NCBI GenBank assembly: GCA_021805735.1
Contig: JAJZEE010000020.1
Location: forward strand, 1-46,560
Direction: 5' to 3'
Length of the DNA stretch: 46,560 nucleotides
Origin: Bacillota bacterium
Lineage (GTDB): Bacteria > Bacillota > Bacilli > Alicyclobacillales > SLC66
Each line of letters starts with the position of its first letter. Within the stretch, counting starts at the first letter, position 1. The notes under the pieces are model-generated. The model was not told the origin of the DNA, made no database searches, and saw only the letters and a program-made list of their open reading frames with translations. Positions 6,799-18,900 of this stretch are shown here, one piece after another. Position numbers and translations under genes: made by a program.

Positions 6799-7005
6799 CG
6801 ATGATCCCCTTTCCTGCGCCTCGCCTCAGCTCACCAACTCATAGACGCTCGTGCTAGAATTACGCGGAACAAGGACAGAATAGAAGCGGGCGCACCGATT
6901 CTCCATCGCCAAATCTGGCAGAGCGGCATCAGACGCTGCGCACAGGAAATGCTCATCTTGTGTCGAATGAAACTTAGAGCCACGTTCACCTTGGAGGATG
7001 ATTCA

Positions 7006-8475
7006 ATGTTTCGTTTCCCAGACTTAACGCAAGACATCAAGACCTTTCTCTCTACGGGGCTCGTCATCAGCCCCTGGTTAGCGGGCATTGATGCGATCGA
7101 CCGTTTCGATGCGGACGTGTTTCATCTGATCGACTATGTCGCTCGCGAAATCGCCGCCGCTCACTGGTCGGAGGAAAACCAGATCAGAGTGTTTCATGAC
7201 TTGCCCACTCCCGAACGCATCCCACGCACCGCGATCTATGAAACCATCGCGTCAACCGCAGTCTATCTGGCCATAGAACAGCACTCCGAGGCGGTCGTCG
7301 ATGAGCCGATCGCCCAACAGGCTCTGCGCATGGTTGAGGATTACATTTCCGAACACGGGCTGGCCTCGCTCGTTTTCATCTACGCCCTGATCACGAGTTA
7401 CGAAAACCACCAGGCGCTCGCGTATTATGGGAGCATCCCTGAACGCCAATTTATCCTTGGCAGTTGGCACCGCCCATGGGTCGACTATTCACTGAGCGAT
7501 GAGTTGATGCTGGGGTCGTTGTCTGGTTCGATGCGCATTGTAGTCCAACAAGGCCGTCGTCACGTCAAACTGACGGAAAACGGGATCAAGTTCATGAACG
7601 AGAACGCTGACATGCTCGAACATAGTGGATATTTGGAACACCGCATGCGTATGCTGCACATTTTGCAGTTCACCATGTTTGATGATTATGACGACATGGC
7701 AGAGCAGGTTATTCCAAATGCGATGGAGTTGCGCAAAGTCCTCGTGGACTTTGCCGGAATCAAACCTGGAATGCGTGTCCTGGAGATTGGGTGCGGCAGT
7801 GGCGCGCTGACATTCGGGGCAGGCCTGGCGGACCGAGTCGGCCCATCCGGGAGGGTCGTTGGCGTCGATCCGTCATCAGGCATGCTGCATCGCGCGGAAT
7901 TGGCGAGGCGCCTGAGAGGTATTGACTGGGTGCAATTCACACCCGGGAGCGCAGAGCGTCTTCCATTTTCGGATGGAACGTTTGACGCGACGATCGGAGC
8001 CGCATTTCTTCATTTTACTGATATGCCCAAGGCTGCGGCGGAGATGGCCCGCGTGACTCGAAGAGGAGGTGTCATAGCCAGTCTGCATCCCCTAAAGAAC
8101 CAGCATCAACCGCCGTTTTTCCGGGAATGGTTTGGGCCGGTGCTGAAACTGTCCCAGGAGCTCACCCGCATCAAGAGGGCCTACTTTCCCGATCCGTCCC
8201 AAGTGATTGCCGCATTCCAGACTGCCCCCCTTACGGACATCAATACGATGGACGTATCACTCCTCACCCTCTTTAACGATCCCGACAAAGTGATCCGGCA
8301 TTTCATCCACGGAATCGGTATGTTTCAGGAGGAATTGACACAAATACCCTGGAAAGCGCGCCATGACATGATCCAGATGTTACTGGACAATGGTCGCAGG
8401 GTCGTCAAACAGCATCAGCAGAAAGATCTGTTCATAGCGCACCCAGCCCAATTGGTTAAGGGGACGGTCATTTAA
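7006..8475 (+). CDS. Class I SAM-dependent methyltransferase with extra N-terminal domain
   Basis: The C-terminal half (about 250-400) is a UbiE-like Rossmann methyltransferase: motif I VLEIGCGSG at 258-266, an acidic GVDPSSGM after strand 2, and FDATIGAAFLHF before the substrate region. The first 240 residues are a mainly helical domain I do not recognise; the stretch RRHVKLTENGIKFMNENADM (about 184-203) resembles the wing and last helix of a winged-helix domain, so it may be a substrate- or DNA-binding module. ATG 7006 is preceded by GGAGG 8 nt upstream. Total 489 residues. It stands alone and its substrate is unknown; the 207 nt upstream show no clear regulatory structure. Confidence 0.85.
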   Translation: MFRFPDLTQDIKTFLSTGLVISPWLAGIDAIDRFDADVFHLIDYVAREIAAAHWSEENQIRVFHDLPTPERIPRTAIYETIASTAVYLAIEQHSEAVVDEPIAQQALRMVEDYISEHGLASLVFIYALITSYENHQALAYYGSIPERQFILGSWHRPWVDYSLSDELMLGSLSGSMRIVVQQGRRHVKLTENGIKFMNENADMLEHSGYLEHRMRMLHILQFTMFDDYDDMAEQVIPNAMELRKVLVDFAGIKPGMRVLEIGCGSGALTFGAGLADRVGPSGRVVGVDPSSGMLHRAELARRLRGIDWVQFTPGSAERLPFSDGTFDATIGAAFLHFTDMPKAAAEMARVTRRGGVIASLHPLKNQHQPPFFREWFGPVLKLSQELTRIKRAYFPDPSQVIAAFQTAPLTDINTMDVSLLTLFNDPDKVIRHFIHGIGMFQEELTQIPWKARHDMIQMLLDNGRRVVKQHQQKDLFIAHPAQLVKGTVI

Positions 8476-8502
8476 TTGGCTGTTGATCGCGAATTGCCGC
8501 AG

Positions 8503-8547
8503 TTATCCACAGATTATGCGGCAGTTATTCACTGAATCTGTGCATAA
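8503..8547. other. Cluster of DnaA boxes between methyltransferase gene and tsaD
   Basis: TTATCCACA at 8503-8511 is the perfect DnaA-box consensus; TTATTCACT at 8525-8533 is a variant; TGTGCATAA at 8539-8547 is the reverse complement of TTATGCACA, another good match. The first two lie in a 15-bp imperfect direct repeat with 22-nt spacing (two helical turns). The cluster is between two convergent genes, so it is not promoter-proximal. No AT-rich unwinding element or dnaA gene is nearby, so it is probably not an origin but a DnaA-binding control or titration site (inference). Confidence 0.7.
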
Positions 8548-8556
8548 CTATTGACA

Positions 8557-9624
8557 TCACCACTGATCAATAGGGATCGATGCTTGCGCAGTCAGTGTCA
8601 AATCATCCAGTTTCCCTTGTTTGTATCTGACAAACGCCGCCGCGCCAATCATCGCCGCGTTGTCTGTGCAAAAACGCAAATCGGGTACGATCAGCCGCGC
8701 CCCGGCGTCGTCGCACACCGTCCGCAATCGTGTGCGCAAATGCGCGTTGGCGGCCACGCCGCCAGCCAGTACGAGCGTATGTTGCGAGGTACTGGAAAGC
8801 GCCAGTCTCGCCTTTTGGACGAGAGCATCTGTAACGGCGCTTTGAAAGCTCGCTGCCACATCTGCTACGCGTATCGATCGATCTGCCTTTCGCTCACGAT
8901 CGAGGTGAAGCATCACAGCGGACTTCAGACCGCTAAAACTGAAATCCAGAGAGTCTCCGTCCAACATGGCCCGCGGAAATCGAATATACGTGGGATCACC
9001 GCCTGTCGCGGCAGCCTGGATAGCAGGTCCGCCCGGATAACCAAGGCCAAGCGCCCGGGCAACTTTGTCATACGCTTCGCCAGCGGCGTCGTCGCGTGTG
9101 CTTCCAAGCCGTTCGATGCTTCCCTGCGCGTTCACATACAGCAGTTCAGTGTGCCCTCCTGAGACCACCAGCGCTAAAAACGGCGGTTCAACATCTTGTG
9201 AGAGCGCTGCTGCGTACAGATGGCCTGCCAGATGATGAACGCCAATGAGCGGCGCGCCGCTGACCTGAGCAAGCGTTTTCGCGGCAGTCACACCCACAAA
9301 CAGGGCGCCAATCAGCCCTGGCCCATGGGTGACCGCGATAGCCTGCAAATCTGCCAAAGTCATGTGCGCATCCGCGAGCGCCTGCTCGATCACGACCGTT
9401 ACCTGTTCCACGTGCGCCCGCGACGCGACCTCCGGCACGACGCCGCCAAAACGCTGGTGAGAACTGATCTGGGAGGCCACCACCGAACTCACCACGATTC
9501 GTCCATCACGGATCACAGCCGCTGCAGTCTCGTCACAACTCGACTCCACCGCCAAAATGTCGATTGAGCGTGGCGTTGCCGTGTCATGCCCGTAACGCGC
9601 CCTCATGATTTCACTCCAACGCAT
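8557..9624 (-). CDS. tsaD: tRNA N6-adenosine threonylcarbamoyltransferase TsaD
   Basis: TsaD transfers the threonylcarbamoyl group to A37 of ANN-decoding tRNAs, the last step of t6A synthesis. The 355-residue protein shows the ASKHA fold: AVESSCDETAAAV near 25-38, metal-binding GVHHLAGH (128-135, with H131 and H135), SGGHTELL, and the C-terminal LAGGVAANAHLR and CTDNAAMIG segments. ATG 9624 has GGAGG 6 nt upstream and overlaps the end of rimI by 14 nt; a second ATG at 9606 (M-R-A-R-Y) also has a possible site. It is the last gene of the thiL-tsaE-tsaB-rimI-tsaD operon, which brings together TsaB, TsaE and TsaD, the proteins that work together. Confidence 0.97.
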   Translation of the reverse strand: MRWSEIMRARYGHDTATPRSIDILAVESSCDETAAAVIRDGRIVVSSVVASQISSHQRFGGVVPEVASRAHVEQVTVVIEQALADAHMTLADLQAIAVTHGPGLIGALFVGVTAAKTLAQVSGAPLIGVHHLAGHLYAAALSQDVEPPFLALVVSGGHTELLYVNAQGSIERLGSTRDDAAGEAYDKVARALGLGYPGGPAIQAAATGGDPTYIRFPRAMLDGDSLDFSFSGLKSAVMLHLDRERKADRSIRVADVAASFQSAVTDALVQKARLALSSTSQHTLVLAGGVAANAHLRTRLRTVCDDAGARLIVPDLRFCTDNAAMIGAAAFVRYKQGKLDDLTLTAQASIPIDQW

Positions 9625-10096
9625 CCTGAACCTCCGCCGAGTTTGGCAATGTCGCCCACATGATCAGCGCATCTTCCTGATTGTCCGTGTAGTATCCGCG
9701 GCGCAGTCCAGCATCGGCAAATCCAAGCTTGCGATACAGTCCCTGCGCCTGATAATTACTGACCCGCACTTCCAGTGTCATTTTCCCTGCACCTTGCGCA
9801 ATCGCCTCAGCTATGAGTCTGCGCAGCAGGCGTTCACCAAACTTTCGCCCGCGGTATGCTGGGTAGACAGCGATATTGGTCACATGCGCCTCATCAATAA
9901 TGATCCACATGCCGCCATACCCAATCATCTCTTCTCCGAGCCACATAACGACGTAGTGAGCAAAGTGGTTTTCAGTCAGTTCTCCCAAAAAAGCGTTGCG
10001 CGACCACGGGGCGGTGAAGGAAGCGCGTTCAATCCGCATCACATGATCGATGTCCCGAACGGTCATCCGGCGAAATGATAGTGCGTTCGGATCCAT
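9611..10096 (-). CDS. rimI: Ribosomal-protein-alanine N-acetyltransferase RimI
   Basis: This GNAT acetyltransferase (161 residues) is of the RimI type, which acetylates the N-terminal alanine of ribosomal protein S18. Visible are the family opening IERASFTAPWSRNAFLGEL, the acetyl-CoA loop YRGRKFGERLL (Q/RxxGxG/A) and ALIMWATL near the end. I start it at ATG 10096 (M-D-P-N-A-L), which has a GGGGGAG/GGAG site upstream; the reading frame continues open to 10288 but that part lies inside tsaB and lacks family similarity. The chosen start still overlaps tsaB by 68 nt, unusually long. A later ATG at 10069 has no ribosome binding site. Confidence 0.93.
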   Translation of the reverse strand: MDPNALSFRRMTVRDIDHVMRIERASFTAPWSRNAFLGELTENHFAHYVVMWLGEEMIGYGGMWIIIDEAHVTNIAVYPAYRGRKFGERLLRRLIAEAIAQGAGKMTLEVRVSNYQAQGLYRKLGFADAGLRRGYYTDNQEDALIMWATLPNSAEVQDALE

Positions 10097-10856
10097 CGTC
10101 TCCACTCCCCCGCTCCTTCCGAAGCCAGCGCGCCTCTGCCTCCGCCATTTGAAGATAGCGAGGTACCAGGGCATGCGCGTTTTCGCCATGACCGCCCTCC
10201 TCACGTCCAGATAACCCCTGTGCGAACCTTTCACAGCCAAGTGCATACAGATCCTCCGCGCGCACTGCGGCGGCCTCTCCACAGACAATGATTCGCTTCA
10301 GACCGTTCTTTTCCTGCCACTCCCGCTGCGCCACGGAAGCGGAATCTCCGACCAGATACACGAGCTCGTTCCCGCCCGTGATCGTACTAAGAGTTTCTCC
10401 AAACGCAGCCCGATCCCTGCGAGCGTCTGCCACCACTTGTGAGAAATGTCCATGCTGCGAGCGGTAAACTGCAGTATAAACGGCTCCGCGGCGCGCGTCC
10501 CACACCGGAACGACCAACCCTGCGCACCAGCGCATCGAGTATGCCGCGGCGGCCAGCGATGAGACAGGAAGCACCGGAATACCCAGGGCAAATGCCAGCG
10601 TCTTTGCAGCCGTCACGCCAATGCGCACTCCGGTGTAAGAACCAGGACCCACACCAGCAATGACGCCTTCCAGGTCAGACAGATTCATATTCAGGTTTGC
10701 CAGCATCTCATCGATTAACGGATTCAAGAGGGTCGCGTGCATTCTGGCCACGCGCGTTGTCCACGCGGCGAACACCTGGCCCGCGCCATCGCCGACTGCC
10801 AGACTGAGGGTAGACGTCGCTGTGTCGATCGCTAACAGGGCCATAGTCTCATCCAC
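10029..10856 (-). CDS. tsaB: tRNA threonylcarbamoyladenosine biosynthesis protein TsaB
   Basis: TsaB is the non-catalytic ASKHA partner that binds TsaD for t6A formation. The family start MALLAIDTATSTLSLAV and the segment GVGPGSYTGVRIGVTAAKTLA (about 70-90) are clear; the protein lacks the metal-binding histidines of TsaD, as expected. At 275 residues it is longer than usual (about 230), with a charged C-terminal tail that overlaps rimI. It overlaps tsaE by 25 nt. ATG 10856 is very close to AGGAG; ATG 10844 (M-A-L-L-A-I-D-T), 11 nt from it, fits the family start better, so the true N-terminus may be four residues shorter. Confidence 0.94.
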   Translation of the reverse strand: MDETMALLAIDTATSTLSLAVGDGAGQVFAAWTTRVARMHATLLNPLIDEMLANLNMNLSDLEGVIAGVGPGSYTGVRIGVTAAKTLAFALGIPVLPVSSLAAAAYSMRWCAGLVVPVWDARRGAVYTAVYRSQHGHFSQVVADARRDRAAFGETLSTITGGNELVYLVGDSASVAQREWQEKNGLKRIIVCGEAAAVRAEDLYALGCERFAQGLSGREEGGHGENAHALVPRYLQMAEAEARWLRKERGSGDDGSERTIISPDDRSGHRSCDAD

Positions 10857-11380
10857 TCCTGGAAAGTTCTGAGAGCGGCATCGCCGCGCGCAGACAAAAT
10901 CACCGTGCGACCAGACTCGCCCGGATTCTGCGTATCCGCTCCGCTATTCTCAGCCCCGATCTCCTGTGCATCCAGTTCGATAAAATGTATATCAATCCGT
11001 TCATCCGGCAGTACGTCTTCGAGCAACTGCGCCCACTCCACGGCGCAGACGCCTTCTCCAAACCAGTATTCGTCAAGCAGATCCAGTTCCTGTCTCGCTT
11101 CGTCTCCCAGTCTGTACAGGTCGATATGATACAGCGGAAGCCGACCGCCCGTATGTTCCTCGATCAATGTGAAGGTCGGGCTCTTCGCAAAATCAGGCAA
11201 CCCGAGACCTCGGGAAAGTCCCGACACAAACGTCGTCTTGCCCGCGCCGAGTCTTCCCCGCAGGGCGATCACCAGTCCGGCTGGCGCGACTCTGCCGCAT
11301 GCTTCCCCAAGCAAACGCGTTTGCGTCGCATCCCTCAGACTCAGGGTCAATCCGTATTCCATGCCTGGACTCGTTGTCAT
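10832..11380 (-). CDS. tsaE: tRNA threonylcarbamoyladenosine biosynthesis ATPase TsaE
   Basis: TsaE is the ATPase that resets the TsaB-TsaD complex during t6A synthesis. The 182-residue protein has the P-loop GRLGAGKTT at 42-50, then KSPTFTLIEEH and LYHIDLYRL, and the C-terminal Trp-rich VEWAQLLEDVLP, all characteristic. The C-terminal 30 residues (acidic, with a GAENSGADTQNPGESG insert) are longer than in most homologues. ATG 11380 overlaps the thiL stop (ATGA), and its own 3' end overlaps tsaB by 25 nt. Confidence 0.95.
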   Translation of the reverse strand: MTTSPGMEYGLTLSLRDATQTRLLGEACGRVAPAGLVIALRGRLGAGKTTFVSGLSRGLGLPDFAKSPTFTLIEEHTGGRLPLYHIDLYRLGDEARQELDLLDEYWFGEGVCAVEWAQLLEDVLPDERIDIHFIELDAQEIGAENSGADTQNPGESGRTVILSARGDAALRTFQEWMRLWPC

Positions 11381-17619: not shown

Positions 17620-18900
17620 TCACTCGTGTCCCCAACTCGCCAAGTACTGTTTCTGCTCTTGCGTCAATTCATCAATCGCGGCTCCCACCGCCTGCAACCG
17701 CATGCGCGCGACTTCCTCGTCGATGTCATGGGGCAACTTGTGAACCCCTGCCGGCAAGGAATCCTTCATCACGTAAAGTAAAGCCAACGCCTGCAGCGCA
17801 AACGTCATATCCATGACTTCCGCGGGGTGGCCATCTCCGGCGGCCAGGTTGACCAGTCGCCCCTGCGCCAGAAGATACATCCTGCGCCCATCTGCAAAAA
17901 CGAATTCCTCCACGTTGGGCCGAACCGCGTTCACTTGCTGCGCGCGAGTCCGCAAGTCGGGAATGCTGATCTCCACATCAAAATGACCTGCGTTGGCCAG
18001 TATGGCCCCCGACTTCATCACGTCAAAATGCGCTCCCGTGATGCAATCCCTGTTGCCAGTCACGGTGACGAAGAAATCTCCGACGCGGGCAGCCTCTGCG
18101 ATTGGCATCACAGTGTGGCCGTCCATGATCGCTTCAACCGCTTTGATGGGATCGACTTCGCAGACGACCACCTTGGCGCCGAGCCCGCGGGCTCTTAGCG
18201 CCACGCCTTTCCCGCACCACCCGTAGCCGACGACAACCACTGTCGTGCCTGCGACCAAAAGATTGGTTGTGCGCATGATTCCATCCCACACAGATTGGCC
18301 CGTTCCATAGCGATTGTCAAACAGGTACTTGGAGTAGGCGTCGTTAACCGCGATCATGGGAAATTGCAAGATGCCCTGCTCGGCCATGGCGCGCAAACGC
18401 AATATGCCCGTCGTCGTTTCTTCGCATCCACCGACGATTTCAGCCAGCTGATCCGGTCGATCGCGATGAAGCGTCGATACGAGATCGCCGCCGTCATCGA
18501 TCACAAGCTGAGGATGAAAATCAAGCGCAGCCTGAATGTGACTCCCGTACTCCTGTGCGGTGGCGCCATGCCAGGCGTACGCGACGACGCCATCATGGAC
18601 AAGCCCGGCAACGACATCGTCCTGCGTAGACAGAGGGTTTGACGCAACAACTGCAACCTCCGCCCCGCCTGCCTGAACAACCTTGGCCAAGTAAGCCGTT
18701 TTGGCCTCGAGATGCAAACAGATCACCACGCGCTTTCCAGCAAACGGACGATCACGCGTAAACTGTTCTTCAAGACTGCGCAACAGCGGCATACGCCCCC
18801 GCACCCACGCGATCTTGCGCAACCCCTGTGGATAAAGTTCATAGTCGCGAATACGCGACTGCTCTGTGACACGCGTTTGCGCCGATGTAACCTCGCTCAA
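17620..18900 (-). CDS. ahcY: Adenosylhomocysteinase
   Basis: This NAD-dependent enzyme reversibly splits S-adenosylhomocysteine to adenosine and homocysteine, clearing the by-product of methyltransferases. The NAD-binding Rossmann motif [15 protein letters not shown] is clear, and VTGNRD and [13 protein letters not shown] (substrate and NAD contacts) follow; the N-terminal [14 protein letters not shown] is typical of the bacterial type. I start at TTG 18900 with GGAAGGTGG about 10 nt upstream (426 residues, the family norm); an in-frame TTG at 18936 would give 438 residues. The gene is separated from the small membrane protein upstream by 77 nt, which include AT-rich promoter-like sequence. 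Confidence 0.94.

Follow-up and report, generated by a model that had tools for sequence, protein, structure and literature searches.

DnaA boxes in the gap downstream of tsaD

The window, by which we mean the whole 46,560-nucleotide stretch of Bacillota DNA that was analysed, contains the t6A synthesis gene tsaD (gcp) at coordinates 8557–9624 on the minus strand, with a match above the TIGR03723 cut-off. Open reading frames for rimI-like, tsaB, and tsaE genes (9611–11380, minus strand) are situated upstream of tsaD and are transcribed in the same direction; the rimI and tsaE names derive from reading of the sequence, and the tsaB region was also matched by the TsaD query. A methyltransferase-like ORF, named by sequence reading alone, is transcribed convergently from the plus strand (6949–8475), and the gap between the two genes is 81 nt (8476–8556), rather than the 80 nt given in the original prediction.

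Motif scanning identifies three boxes for the replication initiator DnaA in this gap. The first (TTATCCACA, 8503–8511, plus strand) is an exact consensus match and is unchanged in the congener G002; the second (TTATTCACT, 8525–8533, plus strand) has one mismatch, and its G002 counterpart (TTATGCACT) differs solely at a degenerate position; the third (TTATGCACA, 8539–8547) is again exact and is on the minus strand. The second and third boxes are arranged head-to-head, 14 nt from start to start with a 5-nt gap, and the offsets of the three boxes are 0, 14, and 36. Two exact boxes and a one-off variant between convergent genes, with a 22-nt repeat period, are what had been predicted, and the period is seen as two direct repeats (8495–8516 and 8517–8538, plus strand) that are 77% identical. 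The outer boxes and their flanks form a 15-nt inverted repeat as well (8501–8515 and 8535–8549; 93% complementary), and both types of repeat are composed of DnaA boxes together with flanking sequence. A terminator reading of the gap was dropped, as no intrinsic-terminator-like site was found in the region 8300–8700 and the folding of the gap is ordinary (z = −1.28, with 21 of 200 shuffles as good).

In 20,000 dinucleotide-shuffled versions of the gap, no case with at least two exact and at least three total boxes arose. Across the whole window there are 29 boxes with at most one mismatch against a shuffle mean of 22, and 6 of 100 shuffles reach 29, so there is no clear enrichment; the gap is notable for the clustering of its boxes and not for box number window-wide. 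The genome (3.76 Mb) contains 87 exact copies of TTATNCACA versus 61 of a reversed control motif. The gap thus has at least three close DnaA boxes in an intergenic position away from dnaA, as in the DnaA-box clusters of Bacillus subtilis, and the dnaA gene of the same genome is on a different contig (C64) from the cluster. The only other exact box in the window is a single TTATCCACA at 18827–18835 (minus strand), and elsewhere in the genome contig C50 has an exact inverted DnaA-box pair within a transposase-like ORF (L291:1349–1415).

A counterpart in Bacillus subtilis

The original prediction places one of the B. subtilis clusters beside gcp, which is tsaD, and this is correct. In PMC4447404, B. 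subtilis DnaA binds in vitro to a region downstream of gcp and ydiF; this region, with its 10 sites, belongs to a group of eight bound with high affinity, and approximately 16-fold more gcp-ydiF DNA is recovered with ATP-DnaA than with ADP-DnaA at 55 nM. The two loci have DnaA boxes at the same place, 3′ of tsaD/gcp in a 3′–3′ gap, and the window cluster is orthologous in position to gcp-ydiF as described in that source. They differ in that the B. subtilis region has 10 sites and ydiF as its neighbour, whereas the window has three boxes, including an inverted pair, and a methyltransferase-like neighbour. As judged by sequence comparison, the window contains a real, selected DnaA-box cluster that is the positional orthologue of the gcp-ydiF cluster.

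Six clusters outside oriC are described in B. subtilis, and their joint deletion leads to early initiation (PMC5295017; PMC13220808); one review judges the clusters to be without a significant role in initiation (PMC5295017), and reviews treat them as minor, titration-like sites. B. subtilis is described in a review as being without datA, DARS, Hda, and SeqA. In a literature search, outside which lie Okumura 2012 and Ishikawa 2007, no paper was found that pairs 'DnaA box' with 'tsaD', and gcp, ydiF, and DnaA were found together in PMC4447404 alone.

Conservation of the cluster across the Bacillota

For comparison of tsaD 3′ flanks, a cluster was defined as at least three boxes (at most one mismatch), at least one of them exact, within 150 nt and starting from −30 to +450 nt relative to the tsaD stop codon. 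Among tsaD loci of the window's class, 82/119 have such a cluster, representing 35 of 50 families, whereas other equally long 480-nt windows of the same loci have one in only 7 of 1269 cases and the reversed control motif gives one at 1/119 tsaD flanks. Box density in the class (at most one mismatch) is 15.0/kb in the first 200 nt past the stop codon and 8.6/kb in the next 200 nt, versus 0.3–2.0/kb in all remaining 200-nt bins. Outside the class but within the phylum, the cluster is present at 46/70 tsaD loci, with 1/70 for the reversed motif, and phylum-wide it adjoins tsaD in 72 of the 107 families sampled. A recount reproduced both the 82/119 and 46/70 totals; six further tsaD flanks, kept outside these totals, include two with the cluster (2/5 in the class, 0/1 in another class).

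The class loci were hand-chosen, with about one to four per family and more from the window's own family (f1) and from f2; 30 came from a set of 41 genomes (in which G013 of f1 has no full tsaD) and 90 from a set of 299 genomes. Of these 120 loci 119 were used, L009 being excluded because the tsaD stop codon is absent from its contig. In one of the loci examined (L024, from the relative G029) the tsaD match contains an in-frame TAG. The other-class loci are from 70 of 144 genomes of the same phylum, and consist of the 30 best-scoring loci and 40 chosen for family spread.

The cluster is by no means universal. It is absent from 37/119 class loci, 24/70 other-class loci, and 4/16 loci of the window's own family, and it is uneven inside a single genus, in which G099 and G222 lack it and G277 has it. 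In a set of named loci (the best 80 of 587 matches, grouped by record title, with many metagenome-assembled, and with L194 and L205 dropped for short 3′ flanks), 16/66 Bacillota and 0/12 others have the cluster. Positive examples among these best 80 include Paucisalibacillus, Halolactibacillus, Kroppenstedtia, Macrococcus, Thermovorax, and Sporomusa, and the 50/66 Bacillota without it include Streptococcus, Enterococcus, Pediococcus, the sampled Lachnospiraceae, and three Paenibacillus. The lower fraction accompanies a sample rich in cluster-less groups, and it genuinely restricts how far the cluster can be called 'conserved'. The box pattern of the Thermovorax locus (L211) equals that of L150, and the Macrococcus pattern (L227) resembles L042 (family f10); from such likenesses the class and phylum sampled were read as Bacilli and Bacillota.

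Within the window's genus the boxes can be compared with their surroundings. Between the window's genome (G000) and G002 none of the 24 specified box bases differ, while changes are present at 2/3 of the N positions, 3/18 spacer bases, and 20/30 flank bases (box versus flank, p = 1e-7; box versus spacer, p = 0.07), and this identity of the specified box bases is retained even though the downstream gene of G002 is unlike that of the window.

We considered whether the boxes match by chance or simply result from AT-rich intergenic sequence, to which the whole-window box number (within chance) and the lineages without a cluster would conform; this explanation is barely credible against the shuffles of the gap, the near-versus-far and reversed-motif controls, and the retention of box bases while the flanks changed. 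The expectation that site and neighbouring tsaD have been kept together over a very long distance, and not by chance, is therefore upheld, with many lineages lacking the cluster; since the boxes occur class-wide and phylum-wide with low control values, the opposite outcome, that relatives have no boxes beyond chance, can be set aside. The replication-control role that the original prediction also gave the locus is a putative one. Sporulation was rejected as the cause of the conservation, as four of 12 Spo0A-negative genomes examined (G277, G080, G184, and G439) have the cluster. Thirteen genomes were below the Spo0A cut-off and 12 of them were examined at tsaD; 32/57 Spo0A-positive class genomes have the cluster. 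The set was enriched for cluster-negatives and gives no rate.

Neighbouring genes and other t6A loci

The cluster follows tsaD, whereas the genes on its other side turn over. Of 128 cluster-bearing loci, 77 are followed by a co-directional ORF and 51 by a convergent one. The next ORFs of the loci compared fall into 81 blastp groups of which 64 are singletons, although this grouping is from crude ORF calls and some are spurious (e.g. the ORF of L019). An ABC-F ATPase gene (ydiF-like) is the neighbour in 37 loci, of which 32 have the cluster, and ydiF-like ABC-F genes are also found beside the site elsewhere in the window's family; a methyltransferase-like gene adjoins the cluster in four further loci of that family (L002, L004, L005, and L006). 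Other neighbours, with names read from sequence, are an alkaline-phosphatase-like protein, Lgt, MurC, 5-FCL, and a histidine kinase. With so many groups and so many of them single, regulation of the neighbouring gene was rejected as the cause of the conservation.

A broader role in transcription, in which DnaA at the cluster controls or insulates neighbouring transcription (for example as a roadblock separating tsaD from the next gene) or links DnaA to t6A synthesis, is quite unlikely but has some points in its favour. The orientation of the next ORFs (77 co-directional and 51 convergent) is one of these. Another is a second cluster upstream of tsaC/ywlC, also a t6A gene, in 20/30 class genomes (downstream in 1/30), and ywlC is given in the literature as a gene that DnaA regulates. 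The position of the tsaD cluster argues otherwise, as it is at the 3′ end of the gene string made up of tsaD and the rimI-like, tsaB, and tsaE genes, and not at the tsaD promoter; moreover, its neighbours vary in both identity and direction, and the tsaC cluster is missing from the window's own genome and from G016. The eight gene sets that PMC8203912 lists as directly DnaA-regulated in B. subtilis include neither gcp nor ydiF, making a non-transcriptional role plausible.

A cluster was also sought at yqeG/sda, where it is present upstream in 10/30 class genomes and downstream in 0/30. The 30 genomes used for both tsaC and yqeG all have the tsaD cluster, and the yqeG locus of the window's genome (L385) is cut by a contig end and was counted as a miss. 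Of the three B. subtilis sites compared (tsaD, tsaC, and yqeG), the two better-kept ones adjoin t6A genes. Counted from where the matched region begins, several of the tsaC/ywlC loci (L326–L355) have boxes near −37, −25, and −7.

Spacing of the boxes and comparison with oriC

In the 72 of 107 families that have the cluster, one strand, as read relative to tsaD, carries most of the boxes (707 versus 186). Same-strand spacings have their main peaks at 9 nt (56 of the 72 families), 12 nt (53), and 21 nt (46), against a mean of 8.9 per distance; lesser same-strand peaks are at 42–43 and 52–54 nt. The three main peaks recur in subsets, with 26, 27, and 21 of 34 families in the class without the window's family and 31, 27, and 27 of 37 families in other classes. 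In a helical-phase test using one locus per family (whichever has most boxes), power at 10.5–11 bp is 0.44–0.49, compared with no more than 0.13 when boxes were placed at random 60 times, indicating that successive boxes tend to share a face of the helix at about one per turn. A layout phased in this way would suit a head-to-tail DnaA oligomer. Titration by itself would work at any spacing, so the conservation of this geometry suggests something beyond it. The window itself does not have the 9/12/21-nt same-strand array, having two boxes 22 nt apart on one strand and one inverted, and with only three boxes and no such array strong cooperative binding in the window is doubtful.

The boxes at Bacillota oriC regions (the dnaA–dnaN gap) are the same, and both types of site have boxes about 43 and 54 nt apart on one strand, as would be expected if the tsaD cluster were a cryptic or former second replication origin. 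The short spacings differ, with those of oriC gaps (n = 43) at 8 and 11 nt, alongside 43–44 and 54–55, rather than 9, 12, and 21. The DnaA-trio, with the motif as given in the literature and scored as present at four or more of six, is found in 32/43 oriC gaps but in only 1/76 tsaD gaps; the window gap scores 1/6 and the oriC of the same genome 4/6. The second-origin reading is highly improbable and was rejected, given the near absence of the trio and short spacings unlike those of oriC.

Variation in the window's family and comparison with DARS and datA

The window's family retains a reduced, inverted form of the cluster. The layout +0, −14, −36 is present in the window and its two congeners, and other family members have +0, −13, −25 or −26; +0, −12, −24; or mirrored 14/36 layouts. 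In G007 and G014 the cluster is 1.8–1.9 kb from tsaD with two genes inserted between them, and both were still counted as negative, making up two of the four cluster-less loci of the family; the displaced cluster of G014 adjoins the 3′ end of an ABC-F gene, and in G007 one more ORF intervenes. These displaced sites (L288:12483–12541 in G007 and L289:8643–8701 in G014) contain five boxes oriented +,+,−,−,− or +,+,+,−,−, with 12- and 14-nt steps. G010 has no cluster 3′ of tsaD, and three same-strand boxes 21 nt apart are present about 5 kb upstream of the gene (L290:1809–1859). In G006 none was found in 16 kb.

In the window's family the head-to-head pair, with its 14-nt step and 5-nt gap, has the same arrangement as boxes one and two of Escherichia coli DARS1 and DARS2. 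A scan of E. coli K-12 located the DARS1 and DARS2 cores at +0, −14, −26, in agreement with a review description, in which the two share box spacing and box I is opposite to boxes II and III (PMC5742627). A tsaD-linked cluster could thus be an active DnaA-switching element, resembling datA (ATP hydrolysis) or DARS (ADP release), at which the geometry builds a specific complex. The fixed spacing and helical phasing seen phylum-wide would fit such an element, as would G007 and G014, which match all three DARS offsets (0, 14, and 26), but we regard it as unlikely. The third box in the window is at 36 rather than 26, and the exact triple with the first box inverted occurs in the standard flank of just 1/189 tsaD loci (L084), in addition to the displaced G007 and G014 sites; DARS was thus rejected as a class-wide architecture, and for the same reasons the window site was not filed as DARS, its geometry serving as a lead. 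Further, ATP-DnaA is the form favoured by the B. subtilis site (PMC4447404), whereas a DARS would call for the reverse, and the review noted above describes B. subtilis as having neither datA nor DARS.

The resemblance to datA is of a more general kind. Both are DnaA-box loci outside oriC, with datA reported to restrain initiation, and the essential datA boxes are described as sharing one direction, as do most of the tsaD-array boxes; datA differs in its described need for IHF, in having another gene neighbourhood, and in lacking a 9/12/21 array among its boxes with at most one mismatch. On the K-12 map, DARS1, DARS2, and datA were recognised by box pattern at what we take to be their places. 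The boxes of the datA region (L386, 4392000–4400000) are about 2.7 kb from tsaE, also a t6A gene, which is possibly a coincidence.

Proposed role and distance from dnaA

The explanation that we think probable is that this is a B. subtilis-type DnaA-box cluster, passed down together with tsaD across a large part of the Bacillota, that restrains initiation by titration. DnaA, preferably in its ATP form, would assemble cooperatively on helically phased boxes, and the site, being replicated early in the cycle, would then withdraw active initiator from oriC. Early replication would presumably double the DnaA sink soon after initiation, and the loss of active DnaA from oriC would restrain re-initiation. 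The boxes, their conservation and spacing, the turnover of neighbours, the near absence of the trio, and the oriC-proximal position in closed class genomes with the cluster were all computed here, and DnaA binding, the ATP preference, and early initiation following deletion of six clusters are from the B. subtilis literature. By analogy, the reduced three-box version in the window would be predicted to bind DnaA and to act likewise.

The conserved geometry may leave room for a more active mechanism than binding alone. A tentative and more far-reaching proposal, which could be right although we would not expect it to be, is that the cluster beside tsaD regulates DnaA across the phylum and is a functional counterpart of datA/DARS, with a phased array, a DARS-like inverted core in the window's family, and an old link between t6A and replication that includes the tsaC cluster. 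Its presence in two thirds of the families sampled, at fixed helical spacing and beside changing neighbours, points to selection for a particular DnaA complex, and one cluster, with spacing rules, would thereby be singled out for DnaA control in bacteria without datA, DARS, Hda, and SeqA.

Distances between tsaD and dnaA were measured in 47 genomes, on the main contig and with some genomes consisting of 2 or 3 contigs. In the 28 closed genomes of the class, the 18 with the cluster have tsaD at 5.3–16.6% of the chromosome from dnaA, and of the 10 without it seven are within 17%. The remaining three, G222 (25.2%; L388), G099 (34.3%; L387), and G123 (35.3%; L399), are the only class genomes with tsaD more than 17% away and all lack the cluster. 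This is a hint that the site is perhaps kept only near oriC, from three far genomes that are too few and include two of one genus. In other classes, the 13 genomes with the cluster have tsaD at 10.1–36.4% from dnaA, and the 6 without it at 9.6–30.8%.
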